Below, one piece after another: positions 42,508 to 58,840 of a stretch of 64,000 nt of DNA (its first letter is position 1; each line of letters opens with the position of its first letter). This DNA comes from Dictyophora rubrovolvata (Eukaryota > Basidiomycota > Agaricomycetes > Phallales > Phallaceae). Below the pieces are notes generated by a model that had not been told where the DNA came from, made no database searches, and saw only the letters and a list, made by a program, of their open reading frames with translations. The DNA lies in contig CP114122.1 of NCBI GenBank assembly GCA_029959195.1, positions 744,001 through 808,000 of the forward strand, written 5' to 3'. The translations under genes and the position numbers were made by a program.

Positions 42508-44382
42508 ATGGATGTGGGTATTTTCTCGCAAATTGCTTCAGAAATATTGGAGTTTCAATCATTCACGCAACAATTTCGGGCTGCTCGTTCAATATCTTGT
42601 AAGTTCTCGGTGGTTTCTCGACCCTCTAATGTTGATCGTCGATTCGTGGGGTAGACTCCATTCTTACCCTCATTTTGCTCGAGATAATATTCACGTTCGA
42701 TAAAGAGGTGTGTTTTTCCTATTTCAATTTCATTTATAGTAAGCCCTTTTCTTCGTCAGATAAAATACATTTGGAGGTATAGAATTTTGTACAGTATTTC
42801 CCTCTTCTGGGAGGCTTACTGTACGGTTTTTTTTGTTCAAAGACGTCCATGGTCTCTCTTCAAGGTCTTTTTTATAGCGTGCAGATATCTCTCTATAATA
42901 CCAACTCTGTAAGGTTTTTCATCTATTTTGAAATGAGATGGATACATAATTGATTCACTATGACAATAGCATAGCCATCAGTAAGCCGTCAACACTCCGC
43001 ATCATAAATTCTAACGCCCGTTAGTCCCTCCTCCCCCAAGTAATATCGTGAGTATATGCTTGTTATATTTTCAGCTGGCTTATTCACAAGGATGGTTTAG
43101 TAGTAAGATTTAGATACGGTCGTCATTATCAATGTGATGACTTTTCTTTCTACACAGTTGTCGATTTGAGGCATGGTACATCGGACTGTGAGTACGATTT
43201 CGCAACGAGAAACATAGCTCAAGTCGATTTTTAGCGCTATCATACTCGTCTCCCTTTTGCCTAGTAGCGGCCTCTTAGCTATTAGACTGGACAGATTGTA
43301 TGCCTCCATGTCGAGTATGATTCCACAGATATGGTTGTATACGTCATTTATTTGACTATTGGCTTTGTTTTTAGTGCGCAGGGCGTTAGTTTGTTTGGTG
43401 TTTGGTCAGTTACCTGAAACTTTCGTTCATTCTCCCTTTTTTTCTGAAATTCTCAACAGCCGAAATCATTGTACGTCGATCCATTGCTTCAGCTCAAAAA
43501 TATTTCTAGTTATTAAACTCTGTCGCATATTAAGTCACAGATCGGGGTTTCGATGTCAATTATACCCAAAACTCAATGGGTGTATAACTCCTTTGTTCGT
43601 GAATGCGCTACGACTTTCTCTAAATCAGAATGGCTCTCCAAAAGCTTGACCATGTTAGTGTTTCGAATGATGTTTGATATTAACTAACATTATTTATAAA
43701 GGCTTCCATACTTGATATTAGTTTGTACGTGATAGCGTGCCCGGATCCTGCGACAGGAATAATATGTTAACCTTCGGATAGGCATGTATATAGCCATTGC
43801 TGGATACGCGTTCATTCGACATTGTCGTGAAAAAGCATCGTTGTCTAGCATATGGGCCGTGCGGAGGGACTTTGCACCGTTTTATATTCTTTTCATCCGG
43901 GATGGCGTACTTTGCTACATTATGTGAGTCTTTCGATGTTTGTTTATTGTCAATCTAGGTTTGACGTCTAGGTTTGACAGTAATCTCCGTATATTTGTCT
44001 TATTTTTGCTCTTATTCCCGTATTCTAACGGTCTCTTAGTCGGGATACTTTGTGGTTTTGTCCTGTTGACAGCCATCTCGAGTGAGAATGGTTTGGCTGT
44101 GGCTGGTCCCACGTATGTTTTGTGTTCGCATTTGACATGAGCTCATAATAGTCTTCAGTATCATCGTCGGGATAACATCCATATCTGTTCGTCGCGCTCA
44201 CATATTCTACAAAAAAATTTCTAATACTCTTTGCTCAGTCATGTCGGCTAGCATTGCTTCTGCACGGCGATCCGGGACATGCGATCGGAGTTTATCAGCT
44301 GGATACTATTGAACTCCGTGTCGAGACGTTGAAGGACAGGAATTCAATTACACCAACAATTCGCACTTTCTGTCAGGTTTGA
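42508..44382 (+). CDS. DUF6533-type membrane protein, array copy A (18 exons)
   Basis: Exons: 42508-42598, 42655-42707, 42760-42776, 42843-42908, 42970-42980, 43025-43047, 43101-43102, 43158-43187, 43265-43314, 43375-43404, 43460-43470, 43534-43658, 43702-43724, 43782-43923, 43981-43988, 44040-44112, 44159-44186 and 44239-44382 (927 nt, 308 residues). The N-terminal DUF6533-like signature is seen: LLEIIFTFDKE, then YIWRRPWSLFKVFFIACRYL. Further on are a C..F..WYIGL..LLAIRLDRLYAS segment, the cytosolic-looking basic RDFAPFYILFIRDGVLCYI block, ILCGFVLLTAISS, and the end CRLALLLHGDPGHAIGVYQL. About six or seven hydrophobic segments alternate with basic loops. Every exon phase matches. The function of the family is unknown; a receptor-like role has no evidence here. 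Confidence 0.82.
43101..43102 (+). other. Predicted 2-nt exon (TA), copy A
   Basis: Sequence context is ...GGTTTAG|TA|GTAAGA.... The upstream intron (43048-43100) and downstream intron (43103-43157) each have normal ends and length. Adding TA turns ..SNI + T|TGT.. into ..SNI-Y-C.., whereas direct joining of the neighbours gives an early stop. Confidence 0.6.
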
Positions 44383-45308
44383 AAGAGATGTTTTTTGGTC
44401 TGTCCGCTGTCGCGTAGCATGAACTGGGGGTTTGTAGTCTCGGGTTTGTTGAAAATAGCGACAGATTCTGTAAATTATTCGTCCATAAATTAGTTCTCTT
44501 TCCAGTCAGAAACATACAACAATATGAATAACTTATATTGACCATTTGCTGTGTATGTAGTAGTCAGTACATATATCGCAGCCGGACGCTTCGCCTTTCC
44601 GGGCGTCTCTTTTTAACTGCTTTCGTCCTAGACCTAAGACAACTAGGTTGACCGTTCACCTGCACCTGTTATACCATACGATATCTTCCAATTAAATGTC
44701 ATTCTAGGAGTGACTTTGCGGTATCTCCATTCGGTAGGGACAAAGGACAAGACTGGACGCGCGGAATATCAACACAATTCGTTGGCCATGAAAAATAGCT
44801 GCTTTGTCAAAGCGACACGTCGCTATACAGCTCCCGTCTCGTGTCCTGTGGTTTCGCGATATGTCGGTTAATGACAAGCGGAAGGCAGATTACGATTTTG
44901 CTTATTCATGAAAATATATTTACTTTTTGCGAACGGAGTTGAGCGTTGAACGCAACGAGTGATGATGAAGTCGATCATTTCGGCCATTGACGGCCGCACA
45001 GGCCCAGGCGCGCGCCCTTCGTAAACGAACCACATTCTGCGCGTGTTATAGAGATATCTTCTCGTCAATAGATCTGGGAAGAAGTGCCCCTGACTGCTCT
45101 CAAAAGAGCTGGTTTTTCGGCTCAAAGAACCTCCGACATGATGATCGAGCAACTGAGCCAATCCTTGTCTCGGGCGAGCCTCACTGACAGTTCGCACAAG
45201 TCTTGCAAACAATGCTCCACGCCAAAGTGCCTTAAAACACGGTTTAATCTTCTGCTCATTCTCTCGCTCACTTGTAAGGCGCTAGCTGGCATCGACATCG
45301 ACATCGAC
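44383..45308. other. Spacer between array copies A and B
   Basis: Includes the 3' flank of A and the 5' flank of B. A part at about 44930-45180 resembles 47690-48060 before copy C (for instance GAGATATCTTCTC.TCAA and GAGCTGGTTTT.C.GCTC). A minus-strand open frame 44868-45212 covers it but has no known domain. Confidence 0.45.
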
Positions 45309-47204
45309 ATGAGCAGTATATTAAATGCATCCGAAGATATCTCAGAATCAGCTGAAGCAATGGGGCTCCGGGCATTCGCACAACAACTTCTCACTGCCCG
45401 TTTAATTTCTTGTACGTTTCAGTTCTTTTTATGTGGATCGCTAAAGAAAAATCTGATGGTTTCTTGCCAGGTTGTATTCTCACTCTCATTTTACTTGAAA
45501 TAGCATTTACATTCGACAAAGAGGTGAGTTTCTACACACCATTCTGTTGCCTGTTTATGGTAAGATCCCACGCATGATGTGGTTCGTCTCCGTCAGGTAG
45601 TATACATTTGGAGGTAGTTCATTCAATCGTATTGTTTGCTTCTACGGAGAACTCAACGCAAAACTTCTTTGAAGGCGTCCTTGGTCCCTTTTCAAGATCC
45701 TTTTCATACATTGTAGATATCTTTCCGTCATACCGGCTCTGTAAGGCTTTCATTTTTTATCCTGCAGTTAGACTGATGCATAGTTAACACAATAGTCTCG
45801 TAATAAGTAAACGTTCTTTCCATCGCTGTTACAGCCTGAGCACTGCAATCTTTTTGACGATCATTAGTCCCCCCTGCGCCAAGCAATGCTGTGAGTATAT
45901 CCTCTTCAGTTTTTTCACTTGGCTGATTTATTCATTTTTTAGTAGTAAGTTGTATATTATCGTAGCCAATTTAAGAGTCATGATCCACAGTTGTGAATTT
46001 TTGGACTGGTACATTGGCGTGTGCGTACGCATGTTAATGTTGTTTCTGGACATTCCAGCTTGATAACAACATCCAATCATAACAGTGCTAATATAGTTTT
46101 CACCGTCTGGCCTGGTAGTTGTCTCTTGGCTATTAGGCTGGATAGACTGTATAACTCTAAACTAAGTAGGATTCCGTGAAGATTTTATGTTTTTTTCTAA
46201 CCGATTCTCTCTCCAGTACGCGCAACATTAATAGCTTTAGTCTTTGGTTAGTCTCAGCTCCGTTTGCCTCTCACTCGTTGCTTTGTTAAACTCTTAGTGT
46301 TGACAGTTGAAAGCGCTGTAGGAGCCGTCGTTATTATTATTAATACTGAAATTGACGCATAAATATTGCATAAGTCACAACTAGCAGTTGCATTGTCAGT
46401 TCTACCCAGGTCCTCCCTCAAATATGCTGCGACCCTCGTTGGCAGTGGTACTTGCGCTGGAACCGTCTCAAATTCTACATGGTTTTCTAAAAGTTTTGTT
46501 ATGTTAGTGTTTCAAATACTTTCTTTTAGACGTTGGATAACTGATGTGTGTTATTTTAGGCTTCCGTACCTAGCTCTTATTTGTGCGTATTTCAAATTGT
46601 CATCATATCCTGTCAGATGCGTTAACACTTCAGGTCGATAGGCATATACATCGTCATTGCCTGGCGTGCATTCATTCGACATTGTCACGAGAAAACATCG
46701 TTGTCTAGTATGTGGGCCGCGCGGAAAAACTTCGCACCGCTTTACATTCTTTTCATTCGGGACGGCGTGGTTTGCTACATCATGTGAGTCACGTATTCCT
46801 CTCAATGCCCAAGGTTACATTAAGATATCATAGGAATCTCTGTATATTTTGACTCACTCTTATTAAGCACTAATACTAATGATCTTTTTAGTCGGAATGG
46901 TGTGTGGTTTTCTTCTGTTGACAGTTCCTACCAGTACGAGTGAGTTGGTTCTTGTCGGTCCTGCGTACGTCTTTGTGTATAGCTATATATATTGTCAATT
47001 CACAAATATGCTGATGACTGTTTGATAGCATAATTGCTGGAACGGTATCCATCTCTGTAAGTTATTGCCCTGCATCTCGGAATATTCTAACTTGCTTTGC
47101 TTTGATAGTGTTGTCGATTGGCGCTGCTTCTGCATGGTAATCCGGGACACGCGACCGGGGTTTATCAGCTGGACACGAACGAATTCCATGTTGAGATGAG
47201 ATAG
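45309..47204 (+). CDS. DUF6533-type membrane protein, array copy B
   Basis: The same 18-exon layout as copy A. Landmarks are exon 1 at 45309-45411, an 11-nt exon at 45796-45806, the 2-nt exon at 45943-45944, a second 11-nt exon (TTGAAAGCGCT) just after the CAG near 46308, the 8-nt exon at 46834-46841, and a final exon ending TAG at 47204. The protein shows CILTLILLEIAFTFDKE, VYIWRRPWSLFKILFIHCRY, YCEFLDWYIGVCLLAIRLDR, ARKNFAPLYILFIRDGVVCY, MVCGFLLLTVPTSTSELVLV and CRLALLLHGNPGHATGVYQL. No stop or frame break is seen. The copy is slightly shorter than A at the C-terminus (VEMR*). The acceptor before SQLAVALSV is ATAAG, shared with copies A and C. Confidence 0.8.
45943..45944 (+). other. Predicted 2-nt exon (TA), copy B
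   Basis: Context ...TTTTTTAG|TA|GTAAGT.... It gives ..SNA-Y-C-EF.. in frame with both neighbours; the flanking introns are about 50 nt each. Confidence 0.6.
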
Positions 47205-48159
47205 TGGGGATAAAAGTTCATCAATCTGTATGTTTCTATAAGAGTTAAAAAGATGTTTCGATCCGTTCGGACGTCGCTGCTGGTTTAGTGTCCATTAAAT
47301 TCGAAGTTAGCCATGTTGTTGTTACTTCAGTACGCAAGAACATAAACGAACAGCTCGCAATCGAAGATGATTGTGGTAATTGGAGGTATTGTGTCGCTAG
47401 ACCGAATGAGGCCTAAGACCAGCGTCTTTTCGTCGCCTTCCGCTCCCTTTTTTTGTGTCGAGGCGCTAGTTGGTGTTACTATTATTGACTGGTCTGGGCG
47501 CTTCTCAGGCCGTCGTCATCTTCCTCAGCGACTCCGGAGACGTATCGCTTTCACAAAACAGTTATTCATTGTTGCCTCTGTAGAAAGATTTCACCCCCGT
47601 GATTTGTGATTTGTTGGTGTCATAGCGCAAGCTGGAGGCATATTACAATCTCGCTCTTTCGATCAGTATCTATTTTTTTTTTGCCAATGAAATGGAGTGT
47701 TGAACGCACGAGCGGAAACAAGAAGTTTGATGCAGACCTAAAGGGTCTTTCGTCTTTGGTTCAGTCATTGCATGTCATCCAGGCACCACACAACAGTGAT
47801 ATGTAGTCTCGAGCCTTCTCGCACCCAAATGTGCACAAGAAAAGGCCCCAGGCTCTTCCCTTTCGCCAGTGCTCAATGCCCATGTCTCAGAGGATATGAC
47901 AAAGTAGGGTTGATTATGGACGGCTTTTATAATCGGTATTGAGATATCTTCTCCTCAACGAAGTTGGGCACACGTCGTTGTGTTTTGGATTGCTTTCACC
48001 TGAGCTGGTTTTGCAGCTCGGAGGCAATTGCGCGATCCGGATAAGACAACTGAGTTATTTTGTTCAAGCGCGACACAAATCGTATAAAAAACTTTTCTCG
48101 TACGCTGGGCCTTTTAACACGGTGTAGTATCTTGATCCTCACCTAACGTGCTAGCTGGT
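47205..48159. other. Spacer between array copies B and C
   Basis: Shares blocks with the A-B spacer (see 44930-45180). The open frame 47367-47609 has no recognised domain. No gene is supported. Confidence 0.45.
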
Positions 48160-50070
48160 ATGAACCCGAACGGTAATGTGTCCGGAAATCCTAATTTGGA
48201 AGAAACATTCGTACAGGAGCTTCGCGCCGCCCGTTCCATATCTTGTACGTTTTCAGTTTTCTCATGTCGATCGCCAAAGAGGGTACGATGTGAACTCTTC
48301 GCAGGTTGTATCCTTACTCTCGTTTTACTTGAAATAATATTTACGTTTGATAAAGAGGTGAATTTCCCCGGATCATTTTGTTGCTCATTTATAGTAAAAT
48401 CTCATGTTTGTCTCTATCAGATAATATACATTTGGAGGTACATTACTTGGTCACATTGTTTACTTCTTTGAAGACTCAATGCAAACCTTTGTCTCAAAGG
48501 CGTCCTTGGTCACTTTTCAAAGTCTGTTTCATACATTGTAGATATCTTGCCATTATACCGGCACTGTAAGGCTTCAAATTCCATTTTATCTTCCAATTAG
48601 ACTGATGGATAATTATTTCACAATAGTCTTGTAATAAGTAAGCGTTCTTTCCATCGCTGGACTACAATATTTTAACGGTCATTAGTTCCCCCTGCGCCAA
48701 GCAATGCTGTGAGGATAACCTCATCAATTTTCTTTCTTAACTGATTTATCTTCTAGTAGTACGTTATCAGACATAATCCTAGCTGATTTGATAAAGTTAT
48801 GGTCCACAGTTGTGTATTTCTGAACTGGTACACTGGTGTGTGCGTATCATATGTAACATTGTTCTTAAACATTGCGCCTTGACAACGAGCATCCGATCAT
48901 CCCAGTGTTAATATAACTCTCACCATCTGGCCTGCTAGTTGTCTCTTGGCCATCAGACTGGACAAATTGTATACGTCCAAACTGAGTAAGATTGCATGAG
49001 GGTCTTTTTTCTCTCTCTCTTATCAATTCTGTTTCCAGTGCGCACAACGTTGATAGTTCTAGTCTTTGGTTAGTCTCTTTTTACCTCTCACTCATTATTT
49101 TATTAAACCCTTTGTTTTGACAGTTGAAAGTGTTGTAGGAGCCATCCTTATTTCCATGCTTGTTAACGTTATAATTAACGCATAATATTGCATAAGTCAC
49201 AAATGGCAGTTGCACTGTCAATTTTACCCCGGGTTTCTGTCCGTTATCATGCGAATCGCATCAGTGGTACTTGTTTTGGAAATGTCTCAAACCCTGTATG
49301 GCTTTCCAAAAGTCTTGTTATGTCAGTGTTCCAAATACTTTTTTTCAAACGTTCGACAGTAACTGGTATACATGTATAGGCTTCCGTACCTCGTTCTTGT
49401 TTGTACGTATCTATTGTCATCATATTTTGAAGTGTTAACACCTCAAGTCGATAGGTGTATACATTGTTATTGCCTGGCGTGCATTCATTTGGCATTGTCG
49501 CGAGAAAACATCGTTGTCTAGTATGTGGGCCGTACGGAAAAACTTCGCACCGCTTTACATTCTTTTCATTCGGGATGGCGTGGTCTGCTATATCATGTAA
49601 GTTTCGCAGTTTCTCTTTTGGTTATGCTCAAGCTTACACTCAGAATCTCTTAGCAATCTCCGTACATATATTGCATCTTGTTTGATTTTGCGCTAATACT
49701 AATAAACGTTTAGTCGGTATATTATGTGGTTTTCTTCTATTAACAGTTTCTCCCAGTACGAGTGAGTTGAATTATGTCGGTCCCGTGTACGTCTTAATAC
49801 TATATATGTCATCGGTCTATAAATATGTTGATGACTTTTCATAGCGTAATTGCCGGAATAACATCCATCTCTGTGAGTTATTGCTCTTGCATTTTAAAAA
49901 AAAACTGAAAATATCCTGACCCGTTTCTTTTTCGGCAGTGCTGTCGACTAGCCTTGCTTCTGCATGGTGATCCCGGGCATGCAACTGGGGTATACGAACT
50001 AGATACCAATGAAGTCCATGTTGAGATGACGAAGGTTGAAGATGCTGCTTCAATCTGTACGTCTTTGTAA
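48160..50070 (+). CDS. DUF6533-type membrane protein, array copy C
   Basis: The 18-exon layout is conserved. Exon 1 starts at MNPNGNVSGNPNLEETF. The 11-nt exon is 48627-48637, the 2-nt exon 48757-48758 and the 8-nt exon 49654-49661; the last exon ends at 50070. Core motifs are CILTLVLLEIIFTFDKE, IYIWRRPWSLFKVCFIHCRY, YCVFLNWYTGVCLLAIRLDK, RTTLIVLVFG, CREKTSLSSMWAVRKNFAPL, ILCGFLLLTVSPSTSELNYV and CCRLALLLHGDPGHATGVYE. The frame is open throughout. Within the array it is closest by eye to copy B, so B and C probably arose by a recent tandem duplication that included their 5' flanks. Confidence 0.8.
48757..48758 (+). other. Predicted 2-nt exon (TA), copy C
   Basis: Context ...CTTCTAG|TA|GTACGT.... 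Copy C has no second GT near the exon 6 donor, which removes the main alternative way of keeping frame. Confidence 0.6.
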
Positions 50071-51102
50071 GGGCTCAAAAGGATGTGCCGCTACTAGTAC
50101 TATATTCTCGGCTTGAAGTTGGACGTGTTATTATGACCCCAATAACACTAATATTATTGTTTCGTTTTATGCAGAGAAAAGCCTGGCTTGTAATTTAAAG
50201 TACACAGTATTTACCTTATCAACCACTACTATCTCAGCCCGAGAACGGAAAGTTGGTTTTCTGTTCCGTAATACGCTTTTAGCCTCCCAAAACACCAACT
50301 GTCAGTTGTTGAGTGCCACCGGATTAGATGGTTGGAGTTACGCCACAGAATCTACTTACACAGCTCCAAAAATCAGAACACGCACATGGAAGTTGTGTCT
50401 ATGGGCGTCAAAGGCATCTTCACAACAGGCTTAGTTTACTTACTCCATGCTCTTGCTCAGTGCTGTCGACTAGCACTGCTTCTGCGATGCAAATCAATAG
50501 GAAATCAACGATCCGCGTGAAGATCAAAAGGGTCGTATGGCACTGCCGGCAGTTGAGGCCAAGTTGAGTTCATAGCTGTGTTGATGGTTCTGAACTACTC
50601 CTGTACATATGGTACGAGCACTATTTTTCATATTCGCTGATAAAGTATCTGATCAAACTACCTTAGACAATCCGTACTTTGTCACTCGGTACTACAACGA
50701 GAACTACCGGTTTATTCTGACAATGCTCGGACTATGACGTGTTTTCTTTACTGCCTGCTAGGCTAAGCCATCAAATCAGACTTTGGCGTGCCACGCGATA
50801 GAAACAGAGCATGACAAGCCGCTTGATTTCTTTTGCCAATCAACCAAATGATCCTTCTCGAATCATATCATAGCTTGTTGAACAGGCTGGTGTGAATAAT
50901 TTCTATTCAAAACAAAATCAATGAGTAGCAGGTGTCTAGCCAACCGTTGTGTCGATGTCAGCTCTACCCACCTTCTGAGTTTCCCACTCCAGCCGGCATC
51001 ATGATAGGCGGTAAAGGAAATGCCATGGGTCAAGCTTGGCATAAAAAGGTGTGCTGCCTTCGGCTCAATTTCTCCCCCTATCTTCAAATTACTACTATAG
51101 AC
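50071..51102. other. Spacer between array copies C and D
   Basis: Two parts recur before copy E: about 50510-50720 resembles 53480-53700 (AAGATCAAAAGGGT.GTATGGCA, ATGGTTCTGAA), and 50830-50935 resembles 53980-54080 (CAATCAA.CAAA, TTTCTATTCAAAA.AAAATC). No gene is supported. Confidence 0.5.
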
Positions 51103-53023
51103 ATGAACAGTATGAGTACTTCCGAGGAATTCCAAGCTTCAACACAGTCAGCCCGTTTTATATCTTGTAAGTTCTCAGTTCTCAGGCTGTTGCGTCAACC
51201 GTCGAAGAAGTTTTGACGGGTTCTTGCGCAGATTGCATTCTTACTCTCATTTTACTTGAAATATTATTTACATTTGATAGAGAAGTGAGTTTTCCTAAAT
51301 TATTCTGCTCCTTTTTTAGCGAAACATCTTTTTTACCTCTACCAGGTAATATACATTTGGAGGTGGCTCATTCATGTCGTTTACTCTTTTGCAAACTCAC
51401 CTCAAGACTGCTCTGAAGACGCCCTTGGTCGCTATTCAAGATCTTTTTCATACAATGCCGGTATCTTTCTATTATACCAGTTCTGTAAGGCTCCATTTAT
51501 CAATAACTAGACTATTAACATATATTTAATTCACATTAGGATTATAATAAGTAAGCATTATATTAGCTCCTTGCAACTTTATTTTTAATGGTCATTACTA
51601 GTTCCCTCGCAAAGTGTCACCGTGAGTATATGATATACTCATTTCAGTTTTTCTCACTTGATTGATTCACCATTCTTCTTCATCAGTAGTAAGATCTCAT
51701 GTTTCTTGGGCGATCAAATTGATTTTCAGTCTTTATAGTTGTGCATTTCAAGACTGGTACATTGGTCTGTGCGTACGCGTAACATTGGTTTAACTTGAAA
51801 CATTGCGGCCTGATGCCAGCTGATCTTATTGACAGGGTCAATACAATTCTCACCCTCTTGCCTAGTAGTGGTCTCTTAGCTATCAGGATAGATAGACTGT
51901 ATGCCTCCAAATCAAGTAAGATTTTACTGTGACTTGTATGCCTTTTTTTCTAGATTTCTAACTTATTCTGTCTCCAGTGCGCAGAACATTGATAGCTTTA
52001 GTTCTGGGTCAGTTCCTCTAGTACCTCTTGTTTATTACTTCTCAATAAACTCCAAACTTTCAACAGTCGAAAATGCAGTAAGAACCATTCCTTTCATTAT
52101 AGGCATTCTAATTGACGCACTGTCTTGCCTTAAGTTGCAGCTAGCACCTGCAGTGTCGGTTTTACCCACGTTTTCTCCGAAGTATATTGCGAGCTCACCG
52201 GGTGTTTCTGGTGCTTGTTCCGTAACCGTTTCAAGAAACCTATGGTTCTCTAAAAGTTTAATAATGTTAGTGTTTCGAAAGCCTTTTTTTCTTTAAGACA
52301 CCTAGGAATAACTTGAGTGTAGGGTCCCATACCTGATTTTGGTTTGTACGTGTCTATCATTATTATGCACCATCGTGCTACGCAGCTCAAGTCTCGATAG
52401 GCGCATACACTGCCATCGCCTGGTTTGCATTCATTCGACATTGTCGCGAAAAAGCATTGCTGTCTAGCATGAGGGCTGTACGGAAAAATTTCGCACCGCT
52501 TTACGTCCTCTTCATTCGGGACGGCGTTGTCTGCTACATCATGTGAGTAATTCTGTTCGTCTTGAGCATGTCCAAGCTTACACTCAAATTTCGTAGCAAT
52601 CTTTGTATGTTTCAACTCCCTTTTGATTTCGCACTAATATCAATAAACATTTAGTCGGAATGTTGTGTGGCTTTCTCCTGCTAACTGTCCCTTCTGGTGA
52701 AAACCAACTCACTTTGGTTGGTCCTGCGTATGTTTTCATGTGCTCACTTACGTATGTATGTTGAGTTGATAATTAAATTTCCTGCAGCGTAATTACTGGA
52801 GTAACATCCATATCTGTTTGTGGCGTTTGCGTTTTTCAGAGAATTGAATATATCATTCTAACTTGATTTTCGTTTCGACAGTGCTGTCGACTGGCGTTGC
52901 TTCTGCACGGTGATCCGGGACATGCAACCGGGGTTTATCAGCTGGACACGAACGAAGTTTGTGTTGAGGTGTTGGTGACAGAAGATTCGGCTTCATCGAT
53001 TTACGATCCTTGTCCAGTTTAGA
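51103..53023 (+). CDS. DUF6533-type membrane protein, array copy D
   Basis: The 18-exon layout is conserved: the start is MNSMSTSEEFQASTQ, the 11-nt exon is 51540-51550, the 2-nt exon 51688-51689, the 8-nt exon 52597-52604, and the stop TAG ends at 53023. Motifs are YCILTLILLEILFTFDRE, VIYIWRRPWSLFKIFFIQCR, YCAFQDWYIGLGLLAIRIDR, REKALLSSMRAVRKNFAPLY, MLCGFLLLTVPSGENQLTLV and CCRLALLLHGDPGHATGVYQ. The loop after the 11-nt exon differs (PSQSVT instead of PPAPSNA). It reads intact. The 3' flank (53024-53220) is very similar to the flank of copy E, so D is the likely parent of E. Confidence 0.8.
51688..51689 (+). other. Predicted 2-nt exon (TA), copy D
   Basis: Context ...TTCATCAG|TA|GTAAGA.... 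It joins ..SVT to Y-C-AFQDWYIGL in frame. Confidence 0.6.
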
Positions 53024-54370
53024 AAGATATTTTGGTTTGTCCGCTATGACATGGCATGAACTTGACGATATTACTGTAAGTCCCATCGGGTTTGTTGACA
53101 ATGATGACGGATTGACACAAAAGATAGATATTTATCGTAAATAATAATGGTCCAGTATGATACTATAATTTTTAATCATCAGTCAGCTTTTCCCAGTAAT
53201 AACATGCGAGAATAACACGCGACCGTTCAGGTTGGCTGCGTAGTTGAGTAGTTATCGGCACTGGGCAGATGAAAAATGGGAATAAGCGATGATGCAGACG
53301 TTTCTCAGGACGCGCCTGTTCTTCCTAGATCTACCCTTCGCCCCCAAAAGTGGTCGGCAAAACTGGGTGATGTCTGCGCATCTGGTCTTGTTTGTGCTTT
53401 TATCGTTGAGAAGGTCGCGAACGTAAAAGAAAAGATATGGCTTGTTGTGTGTGTGTCTGCTATTTGTGATATGCCAGACGTCAAGATCAAAAGGGTGGTA
53501 TGGCACCACTGGTATGCGAAGTTGAAGCCAAGTTGAGGCCATAGTTCGTGTCGATGGTTCTGAATAGCTGTACACATGGTACGAACACTGTTTTTCATAT
53601 TCACTGTCCAAGTAACTGATCCAAGTATTTTAGACGATTCGTACTTTGTCACTCAGTAATACAGCGAAAACCACCGATTTATTCTGATAGAACTAGTTGG
53701 ACTACTACACGTCCATTAAACCACAGAGTTTCTTTGGCGTGCCAGCTGAAGAGAGCCAGGAGGAGCTGACAGGGAAAAAGGGAGTCTGTTGAAGAGGAGA
53801 TATAAGATAAAAGTAGGATAGAGAATGTATTTTATGGAAAAATAAAGGTGGGTACAAAGCTGAATTATGGTCTCTCTTCTTGTTATTCTTCCGCGCGCTC
53901 TCATTTCAAATTTGTCACACTGACGAATTCTCTTGTCCGGGAGTTCCCGGACTCAACACAGCATGACAGGTCAACTATTTCTTCTCCCAATCAATCAAAC
54001 TTGATGCTTCTCCACTCCTATCATAGCTTGATCGGGCCGGTACTAGAATGATTTCTATTCAAAATAAAATCAATGAGTATGAAGCCTATCTTCATCTTAG
54101 TGAGTCATCAGACAGCAATGCCGGCACTTTTGGTCTATCAACAAGGAATGATGTTGCCGTTACACCACCAGCCAATCACGGTATTAATGTCCCACGCCTT
54201 CCAAGTTCTCCTTGAGCTGGCAGCACAATTGGTGGTTGAGGAAACGCATAGGTTGTGATTGAGATAAATTAACTGAGCTCCTGCTTACTCATTTATGTAA
54301 AGAGCCTAAAGGGTGTAACACTTCCCACCTAGCTTTCCGCCTGATTGTCACCCCAATTACTGCTGTGGAC
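53024..54370. other. Spacer between array copies D and E
   Basis: Contains the duplicated 3' flank of D, a segment (53262-53460) that recurs inverted at 57960-58170, and 5'-flank blocks shared with copy D's spacer. The open frame 53276-53536 lies in the inverted-repeat segment and has no recognised domain. Confidence 0.5.
53262..53460 (+). repeat. Inverted flank repeat, arm 1
   Basis: About 200 bp that align by eye, on the opposite strand, with 57960-58170. Shared blocks include GGGAATAAG, GCAGACGTTTCTCAGGACGC, AAAAGTGGTCGG and GTGCTTTTATCGTTGAG. It marks the inverted duplication that also explains array copy F. Confidence 0.7.
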
Positions 54371-54875
54371 ATGAGTAGCATGAATGAAACCGAAGTTATT
54401 TCTCAAGCAGCATTGGAACTCGAAGCGTTGACACAACGCCTTCGGTCGGTTATTTTAGTCGGGATACTGTGTGGTTTTCTCCTATTGACAGCTCCTTCCG
54501 GTATAAATTACCTGTCTTTGGTTGGTCCCGTTCGCGTGTACGTTTTCCTGTATAAATCTGCGCTCATTAACATATGCCGAGTTGATAATTTCTCGCAGTG
54601 TTATTGCTGCAGCAACATCCATATCCGTTTGTGACGTTTGCATTTCAGGAAACTGAAGATATTCTTAGCTTGCTTCGTTTTGACAGTGCTGTCGACTGGC
54701 GTTGCTTCTGCTTCTGCACGGTGATTCGGGACATGCGACCGGGGTTTATCAACTGGACACGAACGAAGTTCGTGTTAAAGACATCGGTGACTCTAAGAAA
54801 ACTCGACTTCATCGGTTTACGACCCCTGTCAGGTTTAGAAGGATATTTTGGTTTGTCTGCTGTGACATGACATGA
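54371..54875 (+). pseudogene. DUF6533 array copy E, internally deleted
   Basis: Exon 1 (MSSMNETEVISQAALELEAL..) runs without an intron into the equivalent of exon 16 (VGILCGFLLLTAPSGINYLS), so exons 2-15 (about 1.4 kb in the sister copies) are gone. The two last introns remain, at about 54525-54598 and 54629-54686. The open frame continues through CCRLALLLLLHGDSGHATGV (with one extra LL pair) to a stop at 54875. It would make a protein of about 123 residues with one or two hydrophobic segments. It is probably a dead fragment, although it is open and could be expressed. The join matches a TTATTTTAG acceptor-like sequence, which suggests recombination at an intron end. Confidence 0.75.
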
Positions 54876-55493
54876 ACTGGGGGATATAAAGTCCCTTCGG
54901 GTTTGTTGACAACAACAGTGACAGATTGGCACAAGAGATAGATAATAATTATGGCCCAGCATGATATGTATTATAATTCAAAATCATCAGTCAGCTTTTT
55001 TCCTAGTAACAACATGCGAGAATAATAACACGCGACTGTTGGCTATTACGTAGTTGAATTTAAGAACATACAATTGTAGTAAACGTGATAAGGAACATAA
55101 TTTTCCGGGAGCCTCGAAGATCATAATCTTCGCCGCTTCAGGAATGGTGAACCAAGACTTTGTAGCCTCACGCCATCCCGAGTAAAAATTACGTCAAGGG
55201 CAGTGAGAATCGCGGTGTGCCCCCGTCAGAGCAGAATCGGAAAGGTCTATACCGAAACAGATACATTGACCATAAATCAATGTTTCGGTGGTGTTTTGAA
55301 TTATCTCTACGCTTTCGGTAACACGCTCGTTCTAAATGCATTATGTAATGATCAAGATTGGGACATCGGAATTTAAATCAATGTTACATGAATTGTTGAC
55401 CATGAGGGATACTACTAGTAGCAAAGCTACAGGATTCCAACACGCGATTAAAGCTGCCGCTCGCCGCGCGGACACGATCCTTTTTAATTTTTT
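54876..55493. other. Convergent spacer between copies E and F
   Basis: The first ~160 bp duplicate the 3' flank of copy D (AATCATCAGTCAGCTTTT, AACATGCGAGAATAA). The rest shows no feature. Confidence 0.45.
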
Positions 55494-57420
55494 TTACCAA
55501 GATGTACTGGTTGGTGAGACAGTCAAGTATTCTACGTTCAACATCTCGACGTTCTCGACGCGGATTTCATTGGTGTCTAACTGATAAACCCCAGTTGCAT
55601 GTCCTGGATCGCCATGCAGAAGTAATGCTAACCGACAGCACTGAAAGAACAGGTTAGAACATTGGTTTTTCGAAAAGAAGGCGTACGAACAGATATAGAC
55701 GTTATTCCAACAATTAGACTGTAAAAGGTTATCAACGATTAATTGCATGAGCGAGCGCAAAAACATACACGGGACTAGCCAAAGTTATAATATTAGCACT
55801 CGGAACAACTGTTAATATGACAACACCGCATAATATCCCGACTAAAATGTCATTGTATTCAACATTCGGTGAGATAGTTAGTGAGAGACGAGACAAAGCA
55901 TACATAGATTGCTGTAGATTTGGACATAAATCCGAACACAATCAAAGCGTATAGAAGACTCACATGATATAGCAGGATACACCATTACGAATGAATAGAA
56001 TGTAAAGCGGTGCAAAGTTTTTCCGCACAGCCTGCATACTGGACAAAGACGCTTTTTCACGGCACTGTTGAATCAACGCGTATGTGGCAATAGCGATGTA
56101 TACACCTTAGGTATTCATAATGTAGGTCAATCCAAAAGAATGATGGCGCAGGGTAGTAGACTCACAAAGTAGAATCAAGTACGGAACCCTGCACAACACA
56201 ACATTAGTTAATCTCGAACGATGGAGAAAAAACAATTGAAGCACTAACATAATTAAAGATTTAGAAAACCATTCTGGCTTTGTTACAAAGGCTCCATCAC
56301 ATGCCTTGATGAGGGGATTATACTCTAGAATCAATTTGGGAACAATCACCGCTGCTATTCCTAACTGTAACTTTCATAAGGTAATAAGTCAGCTGGGGTG
56401 TTAAAAATCCAATTGATGAGATGACTCGTACGGCCATTTCAACTGCTGAAGCTCAGGCTACAAGAAAAGCAATGAACAATAAGCACAGAAGAGCTGACCT
56501 AATACCAAGACAATCAATATTATGCGCACTACAAATTTTTAATTCAGAGAGAAATTGCGGACGAAATCTCAGTGAAAGCGTACCACGTTTGGAGGCATAC
56601 AGTCTATCTAGCCTGATAGCTAAGAGCCCACTGCTGGGAAACAAAGAGAGAACTATAATAATACTGAGATAATTTAATGGACATGTTGTGATGCGCCATC
56701 ATGAAGAACATGCTACGCACAAACCGATATACCAGTACATGAATGTACAGCTATAAACCATAGTTTGGTGACATCATATGGCCTTATAAATATTGATAAC
56801 TAAAGCCTTACTACTAGAAACATCAACGAATCAGTTAAGCAACATGAAATTAGGTTTACCAAAATACTCACAGCAACATTTGGTACAGGAGGAACTAAAA
56901 TGCGTTGAGATTATCGCACGAGGATGAACACAGTGACACTTACTTATAACGATACTAATGAAGATTAGCAATGCAACGGAGTCTGACTGAGATATGAACA
57001 AAATCTTACAGAGCTGGTACTACAGATAGGTATCTGCACGCTACGAAAAAGACCTTGAAAAGAGACCAGGAGCCCCTTTTGGTAAACCGCGGATTAGTTT
57101 CCGAGAGCAGGATATCAATAAACTTGTCTTCGGGTTTACCTTCAAATGTAAGTTATCTGGCGAGGGGAGATAAGGAAGGATTTTAAAACGAATGATGACA
57201 ATAAGAGTGGAATACGAGAACGCACTTCCTTGTCGAACGTAAACAATATCTCAAGCAGAGTGAGAGTAAGAATGGAGTCTGCACAAGCGACGTCAAGCTT
57301 TTCTCAACATGGGAGAACTCGAAACCTACAAGATATGGAGTGGGCATACCTCTCTTGCTGTGTGAATGCTTGGATCTGCAATGCCTGGGACATAATTTCA
57401 GGTGTATTCAAACTACTCAT
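55494..57420 (-). pseudogene. DUF6533 array copy F, inverted, one nonsense codon
   Basis: All 18 exons can be found on the minus strand: exon 1 starts at 57420 (MSSLNTPEIMSQALQIQAF), then CILTL-like SILTLTLLEILFTFDKE, GSWSLFKVFFVACRYLSVVP, the 11-nt exon 56944-56954, the 2-nt exon 56812-56813, YCTFMYWYIGF, AIRLDRLYASKR, SMQAVRKNFAPLYILFIRNG, the 8-nt exon 55904-55911, and CCRLALLLHGDPGHATGVYQ. The 17-nt exon 3 (about 57134-57150) reads ITYI-TGA where sisters have YIWR, i.e. one W-to-stop change. The exon 12 donor is GC rather than GT, and RDG has become RNG. It is otherwise open, so the loss is recent, or a sequencing error is possible. Confidence 0.75.
56812..56813 (-). other. Predicted 2-nt exon (TA), copy F
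   Basis: Minus-strand context ...TTTCTAG|TA|GTAAGG.... The join makes TAC-TGT (Y-C) here instead of TAT-TGT, because exon 8 begins with C. The change is synonymous, as expected if the codon is real. Confidence 0.55.
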
Positions 57421-58840
57421 GTTCAGGTGAGGATGAGGGGGGAAAGCAGGAGCCGCGGCGACACCACGCTTTTATGGACTCATTTAATCACGCAGCACCA
57501 TTCCGCAAGAAAGCTCAGTTGCATTATATCCGAACCTCATCTACATTAAAATTCTCTTGACGAGAAAGCAAGATATCCAGAAGGTATTAAAGTTGAGCTC
57601 TCATCGGAGTCTAGTTAATACCATACCCATCTGCTGCATAAACGGAGAAAATCGGTGGAGGCCTCCCTTGCGCCATTAAAGCGTCGTGTTTCTTTACTCG
57701 GATGTTTGTTACGGTCAGAGGGTGTCGTCTGACCTGTTGAATGATCTACGTGGAGAGTGAGGACTCTGCGCAATTGTTCGCGTATGAAATTATTTGTTTT
57801 GCTCACTTTTCCACGCCGTTTTTCTCATCAAATGTATGGCTCCGAAGCAGATAGCAAAGAAAAAACTGATTCTGTGAGAAATTTCGTGTCGTTGGATATA
57901 GCACATTATCGCATCTGAGCCATTTTGTGAGAATTCTTGCCCATTGCCACCTGGACGGCTTGGCCTGACATACCACGAATAGCAGGCACACATATCTTTT
58001 CTTAAACATCGCGGCCTGCTCAACGATAAAAGCACGAACAGGAAAACCAGATGTTCGGTCAACAGCATTTTTCCCCGACCACTTTTGAAAGCGAAAAGTA
58101 GAGAAAGAAGAGGCGCGTCCTGAGAAACGTCTGCGTCATCCGACAAACTTATTCCCACCACTGTCATATACTCAACGAATAGGAGATTGAATTCGTGGGC
58201 AAGGCGGATTTCATACGCGAACAATTGCAAACATTGACGTTCTGTTACATAGACTCCATCGTGCTCAAACTTTTTTAGTGAATAGGTCAATAGGTTGTGC
58301 TGCACCAGGGCAAAGAAAATCGACCCCCTACATCTACAAATTTGTTGAATAAAGACGAACCTGGGGAATCATGAAAAGTTCACTTCATCTGGCCGTAGTG
58401 GAACTCGAAGCTTGAAGCTCTGGGTTGTACGTAGTACGATTCGTGTCAACCAGTCATAACTGATCACAATATCAGATCTAGATTAACATCTCAACCGAGA
58501 TGAGCTGAATAGTGAGTATTCTGCAAAAACAATGCTCGGCGCTCAGCGCTCTGATGCACATGCATCATGTACGAGATATGAATTAAATTGGCATCTTTTC
58601 ATTGTCACTCATTTTTCTTCATGTCATTTTTTCGTGTTAGGTTCTTGTTCTACACTTGCGCCTTGAACTTACTAGCTCTACATGTTCTAGACGTCACCGC
58701 CAGCAAGTCACACAATAATATTTTCTAATTATCAAGTTATTAACCGATTTACATAAACTAGTACCCAGCATGAACGACGATATTGAGCTCAAATGAAGAT
58801 AACATGAGTTCACTGTATCAACGTCAGACGCGAAAACCCT
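57421..58840. other. Spacer with inverted flank repeat
   Basis: Upstream flank of copy F. A 171-codon minus-strand open frame (57790-58305) overlaps the repeat arm and has no recognised domain; I regard it as chance. The remainder up to the GMC gene shows nothing. Confidence 0.45.
57960..58170 (-). repeat. Inverted flank repeat, arm 2
   Basis: Partner of 53262-53460 on the other strand. It shows the same blocks, including GCAGACGTTTCTCAGGACGC and GTGCTTTTATCGTTGAG. Confidence 0.7.

Follow-up and report, generated by a model that had tools for sequence, protein, structure and literature searches.

Very small exons have been described from several groups of eukaryotes. Exons of 2–5 bp are stated to be known in Arabidopsis, Drosophila and humans (PMC12940212), and the same report describes a 1 nt exon of CYP621A in Fusarium that is conserved in many orthologs and supported by reads. 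Exons of 1 nt have also been published from plants, including Arabidopsis, for APC11 (PMC4674806) and for APC11 and VPS55 (PMC8831610). The APC11 paper proposes intron definition with stepwise removal, states that simultaneous splicing of both introns is thought unlikely for such exons, and quotes a 9 nt exon of potato invertase for which the reported order is of the downstream-intron-first type favoured below (PMC4674806). The P450 genes of Phanerochaete chrysosporium contain microexons, the shortest being reported as 6 bp (PMC1184071).

The locus described here is an array of DUF6533 genes from the basidiomycete Dictyophora rubrovolvata, found in a 64 000-nucleotide stretch of DNA, hereafter the window, in which exon 7 measures 2 nt. 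As reported for CYP621A, this is a fungal gene with an ultra-small exon that is forced by phase, lies inside a conserved motif and is widely conserved; the Fusarium exon, however, measures 1 nt and is known from the orthologs of a single gene within one genus of ascomycetes, whereas ours measures 2 nt, occurs in ten paralogs of one genome and shows a TA-to-CA coding change (PMC12940212). As stated for the plant exons of APC11 and VPS55, exon 7 is too small for exon definition; those exons measure 1 nt and are RNA-proven (PMC4674806, PMC8831610), whereas the 2 nt exon is known from sequence. Many short introns and small exons are a feature shared with the genes described from P. chrysosporium, itself a basidiomycete (PMC1184071). 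Fungal stwintrons, as they are described, also involve neighbouring introns and consecutive removal reactions, which are probable here too, but a stwintron has a splice signal of its external intron divided by the internal one, whereas here both introns have intact ends.

Among the titles and abstracts listed by searches of the open-licence literature on microexons in fungi, Basidiomycota and Agaricomycetes, the Fusarium report was present but there was no 1–2 nt exon in a basidiomycete, and the phrase 'two-nucleotide exon', in several spellings, returned only a rare-disease database paper. The first-pass annotation had called exons this small almost unreported, which is fair for 2 nt, although exons of 2–5 bp are stated to exist (PMC12940212) and 1 nt exons have been published. 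Ultra-small exons are thus already known as a kind; what is unusual here is the conservation of one in ten genes of a single genome, together with a coding change inside the exon.

Gene architecture and the two-base exon in the window

The gene model of copy A (42508–44382, plus strand; 316 codons and a stop) was built by hand and then transferred to copies B (45291–47248, plus), C (48160–50077, plus), D (51097–53022, plus) and F (55484–57426, minus). Both outer ends of B were mapped from copy A, its ATG lying within exon 1 and its own stop within the last exon; the last end of C was mapped likewise and extends beyond that copy's own stop, the ATG of D lies within exon 1, and the outer ends of F were again mapped from copy A. 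All five copies contain all 18 exons, with GT-AG introns and identical phases. Exons 3, 5, 7, 11 and 15 measure 17, 11, 2, 11 and 8 nt respectively, exon 6 measures 23 nt (20 nt in copy D), and the introns, other than one proposed long intron considered below, measure 44–73 nt. The protein of copy C, the one window copy scanned, matched DUF6533 (PF20151) with 42.8 bits against a curated cut-off of 24.1. We regard this domain as a putative mark of a mushroom-forming fungus.

Microexons 3, 5, 11 and 15 have constant lengths across the eight array genes (A–D and F in the window, G–I downstream of it), an unusually intron-dense design. The sixth window copy, E (53110–54912, plus), is a 3′ fragment in which exons 16–18 alone remain (54454–54912), with 75% identity to D; the exon 7 site is absent, and similarity to D was looked for 5′ of position 54454 and none was found.

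Exon 7 was located at a homologous position in all five of the other window copies as AG-TA-GT, lying between two GT-AG introns: 43101–43102 in A, 45943–45944 in B, 48757–48758 in C and 51687–51688 in D, all on the plus strand, and 56812–56813 on the minus strand in the inverted copy F. Intron 6 measures 48–65 nt and intron 7 measures 46–61 nt in these copies. The surroundings in copy A, all on the plus strand, are an 11 nt exon 5 (42970–42980), a 23 nt exon 6 that ends in phase 0 (43025–43047), a 53 nt intron 6 (43048–43100, GTGAGT..TTTAG), the TA itself, a 55 nt intron 7 (43103–43157, GTAAGA..CACAG) and a 30 nt exon 8 (43158–43187), which supplies the last base of a Tyr codon followed by Cys-x-Phe. 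Because exon 6 stops in phase 0 whereas exon 8 requires phase 2, two bases (modulo three) are needed between them. When TA was omitted from the models a stop followed 1–29 codons later, and retention of intron 7 produced an immediate stop, each in all eight array genes.

The first-pass annotation had proposed a 2 nt exon in copies A, B, C, D and F, between introns of ordinary length (about 46–65 nt) with good ends, and had stated that the neighbouring exons join out of frame and meet stops without it. The homologous sites, the matching phases, the measured introns and the stops bear this out. Its positions were correct for A, B, C and F, but 51688 in copy D is the second base of the exon. Its statement that exon 8 of copy F begins with C, giving TAC for TAT and still tyrosine, was likewise seen in the gene model.

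The string AGTAGTANG has eight matches in the window, five of which are at the homologous sites in A, B, C, D and F; in shuffled windows (n = 100) the mean was 1.02 and the maximum 4. The string TAGTAGTAAG by itself was rejected as weak evidence because three of the eight window matches lie elsewhere. When the introns of individual genes were shuffled 2000 times, a usable AG-TA-GT arose in 3–69 trials per gene and a usable AG-NN-GT of any kind in 141–297; these chance values may not be multiplied over genes, because the array copies share descent. The interiors of the introns are well diverged among the eight array genes, with 50 of 519 gap-free columns invariant and a mean pairwise identity of 0.50, and the seven columns AGTAGTA are invariant in all eight.

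A rival reading is that the array genes are decaying and the frame downstream is irrelevant, and the first-pass annotation had said that its proposal would fail if transcripts were absent altogether and that frame were not under purifying selection. There are signs of decay at the locus, in that exon 3 of copy F is interrupted by an in-frame TGA and copy E is a fragment, but no internal stop occurs in the proteins modelled for A, B, C, D, G, H and I, and dN/dS was 0.15–0.31 in all 28 pairs of the eight array genes (dS 0.38–1.64). Pairs involving copy F gave 0.17–0.31, including the highest of the 28. General decay is contradicted by this selection on the frame and is extremely improbable. The TGA of copy F lies in exon 3 (57140–57156, minus) at a codon where the other window copies have TGG for Trp, and is the only stop in the modelled frame before its end; we take it to be either a recent nonsense change or a candidate A-to-I editing site. 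Because of this TGA, copy F may not be a working copy.

Further copies and proteins of relatives

The genome of the same organism (28.24 Mb in 11 contigs, the window lying on contig 6) was searched with the protein of copy D. Five additional copies with a 2 nt exon were found outside the window: G, H and I, which follow the window on contig 6, and two remote copies, J64 and K65 (L065), which also lie on that contig. G, H and I have AG-TA-GTAAG at the same place, while J64 has AG-TA-GTCTGT and K65 has AG-CA-GTCTGT, so that exon 7 is TA in nine of the ten genes and CA in one. Complete GT-AG introns flank it in all ten, intron 6 measuring 48–65 nt and intron 7 measuring 46–61 nt. Over the parts compared, J64 is 43–48% and K65 36–42% identical to the array copies, and the two are 65% identical to each other. 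The presence of exon 7 in these divergent genes indicates that it is older than the array and that the change between TA and CA occurred without a change of size. An exact-pattern search of the whole genome gave no matches and is uninformative, the pattern being too narrow in that it required T after the motif and the exon 8 start of copy A. DUF6533, a family of unknown function, has undergone a large expansion in this genome, with at least 147 Pfam matches, many of them on contig 7.

Protein searches with copy C yielded P0001–P0004, a search with the alignment added P0005 and P0006, and searches with K65 and J64 gave P0007–P0012; the alignment and K65/J64 results are matches among the best 8000 candidates. 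P0006 is a distant protein with a source labelled 'jgi' and is uninformative for exon 7. The source of all the others is labelled 'lgn', which we assumed to denote an assembly of public reads, and their contigs measure 1.2–2.3 kb. When the genome was searched with P0012 there were three matches, and with P0006 none.

P0002 begins after the exon 7 site, and ten proteins (P0001, P0003–P0005 and P0007–P0012) span it. All ten contain residues at exons 5–6 and one residue before the conserved Cys, which is Tyr in seven (P0001, P0003, P0004, P0005, P0008, P0009 and P0011), His in P0007, Phe in P0010 and Leu in the distant P0012. K65 has its nearest relative in P0007 (72%), where the His agrees with the codon made by CA and a following T. 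This amounts to a prediction met, because His was in the K65 protein before P0007 was found. The K65 exon itself holds a TA-to-CA (Tyr to His) coding change, matched by this database protein.

Several of these proteins have features of transcripts. P0004 ends in ..RDGVLCYIM, like copy A with intron 14 retained; the end of P0003 is much like copy I with intron 15 retained; and P0005 and P0002, both on contigs of length 1655, part from the family sequence around intron 8 and then return to it. In three cases the contig resembles an RNA that has retained a single intron, and genomic DNA of a gene with 17 introns is not expected to give reading frames of 149–337 residues. It is possible that some of the related proteins come from an intronless or reverse-transcribed copy. 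An exon 7 in the related contigs would follow from their protein sequence, and its presence in mature RNA appears to be supported by these proteins, some of which are on RNA-like contigs.

Alternative splice structures between exons 4 and 8

For each window copy all open-frame chains of GT-AG introns (38–350 nt) leading from exon 4 to exon 8 were listed, which yielded 60 chains for A, 116 for B, 27 for C, 19 for D and 174 for F. With a tolerance of either 3 or 6 alignment columns, two structures were common to the five copies: in one the exons measure 11, 23 and 2 nt, and the other has a single intron of 244–259 nt. At a tolerance of 10 columns there were five common structures, and at 0 columns the long intron was the sole one; small shifts in the alignment, of a few columns, keep the 2 nt structure from being common at zero tolerance. 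When exon lengths alone were compared across the ten genes, the pattern 11-(23 or 20)-2 was open in all ten, as was the long intron (244–263 nt), and other patterns were open in at most eight.

If the long intron were the true structure, exons 5, 6 and 7 would be nonexistent and exon 4 would be joined directly to exon 8 in frame. Its openness in every gene and its place at zero tolerance are what this reading has to offer, but the nine clearly related proteins spanning the site (P0001, P0003, P0004, P0005 and P0007–P0011) all contain residues at exons 5–6, as does the distant P0012. Third codon positions are the most variable in exons 5 and 6, and the other introns measure 44–73 nt. The long intron is contradicted in the relatives and is very improbable as the main structure; it could persist as a minor isoform. 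Hydropathy did not separate the structures, the best window scoring 2.27 with and 2.07 without exons 5–7.

The lengths were less discriminating under relaxed rules. When GC donors and introns as short as 30 nt were allowed, four other length patterns reached nine of the ten genes, and when every pattern was given the 3 nt freedom accorded to exon 6, two more reached all ten on length alone, namely a single 9 nt exon (exact in five genes) and exons of 11 and 10 nt (exact in two). The case for the 2 nt exon therefore rests on where it lies in the window copies and on the database proteins, not on lengths.

Genomic sequences were also aligned to proteins with our own spliced aligner, which permits only GT-AG introns of at least 38 nt and uses uncalibrated penalties. 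The 2 nt exon was in the best alignment in 32 of 32 comparisons of the eight array genes, 24 against P0001, P0003 and P0004 and eight against P0005. Forbidding exons shorter than 3 nt cost the array genes 6.0–43.5 score units, on the same uncalibrated scale. With J64 the exon was used with six of nine queries (gain 2.5–26.0) and unused with three; with K65 it was used with four of nine (gains 1.0, 1.5, 18.5 and 30.0) and unused with five. The gain of 30.0 came from P0007, against which K65 aligned as a complete 18-exon gene including the CA exon. A stop near exons 12–13 in one K65 alignment was absent from this one. The CA exon of K65 was still chosen when the residue before the Cys was masked in the J64 query. 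Three low-scoring alignments contained tiny exons at other places, of 3 nt for J64 against P0004, 1 nt for K65 against P0003 and 3 nt for a distant gene. Alignments of distant DUF6533 genes (three loci, five regions by three queries, 15 alignments in all) had low scores and serve as a control, because no 1–2 nt exon was proposed in them.

These results bear on the suggestion that the missing two bases are not the same TA in every gene but come from an alternative choice of splice sites, whether another donor, another acceptor or a donor with GC. Local solutions of this sort can be found: copy A takes a 5 nt exon when exons shorter than 3 nt are forbidden, copy B allows a TT exon with a 39 nt intron, and there are the length patterns reached under relaxed rules. 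None of these is common to the five window copies within 6 alignment columns, however, and forbidding exons shorter than 3 nt lowered the score in every one of the 32 array alignments, which leaves such a gene-by-gene explanation very little probability.

Exon 7 of this DUF6533 family is almost certainly a genuine 2 nt exon, lying between ordinary short GT-AG introns that would be recognised by intron definition and removed in succession; its two bases and the first base of exon 8 make up the codon before the conserved Cys, which is Tyr in nine genes and His in one. We have high confidence that it is real at the level of sequence and of the related, partly RNA-like contigs; in this species it is presumably used, and used constantly.

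Order of intron removal and implications

Introns 6 and 7 would each be recognised by intron definition, which should suffice because both are short, and are likely to be removed one after the other. The first-pass annotation had suggested splicing in the manner of recursive or twin introns. In a twin intron, a splice signal of the outer intron is broken up by an inner one and the exon is only formal. The two introns are adjacent and probably removed in turn, as such an arrangement would have it, but each has its own intact GT and AG in all ten genes, no splice signal of one is interrupted by the other in any of them, and the two bases are coding, CA predicting the His that is present in P0007. 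In the strict sense the twin-intron description is not supported, and we regard it as most unlikely. Nor is AG joined directly to GT, as in recursive splicing with a zero-nucleotide exon; two coding-like bases intervene.

Successive removal of two complete introns raises the matter of order. The motif AG-NA-GT forms a tandem acceptor (TAGTAG, CAGTAG or CAGCAG) in all ten genes. Were intron 6 to leave first, splicing to the second AG would take away the G of the donor that follows; were intron 7 to leave first, the second AG would vanish. Removal of intron 7 before intron 6 is preferred because the second AG of the tandem acceptor disappears once intron 7 is gone, but the preference is no more than a guess. 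CTNA, a crude branch motif, is present in intron 6 in nine of ten genes and in intron 7 in five of ten, and this does not point to intron 7 leaving first. On average, the intron 7 donor matched AAGT at 3.12 of four positions, joint second among 16 introns.

A broader reading, offered tentatively and rather doubtful as a whole, is that the 2 nt exon is an old and stable element of this gene clade, predating both the array and the split between J64 and K65, that it has evolved as a coding exon (TA, CA and perhaps TT in the gene of P0010) at constant size, and that its introns leave in a fixed order, 7 before 6. The fixed order enters this reading because the tandem acceptor AG-NA-G would otherwise compete and destroy the donor of intron 7.

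Exons of 1–2 nt test the minimum exon size that the spliceosome can keep, and whether neighbouring introns are removed in a fixed order. The family offers a ready set of variants for this question, because its ten natural copies share one two-base exon and the introns of eight are well diverged. Genes of this type are likely to be broken by annotation: of the at least 147 DUF6533 matches listed for the genome, none lies within the window.
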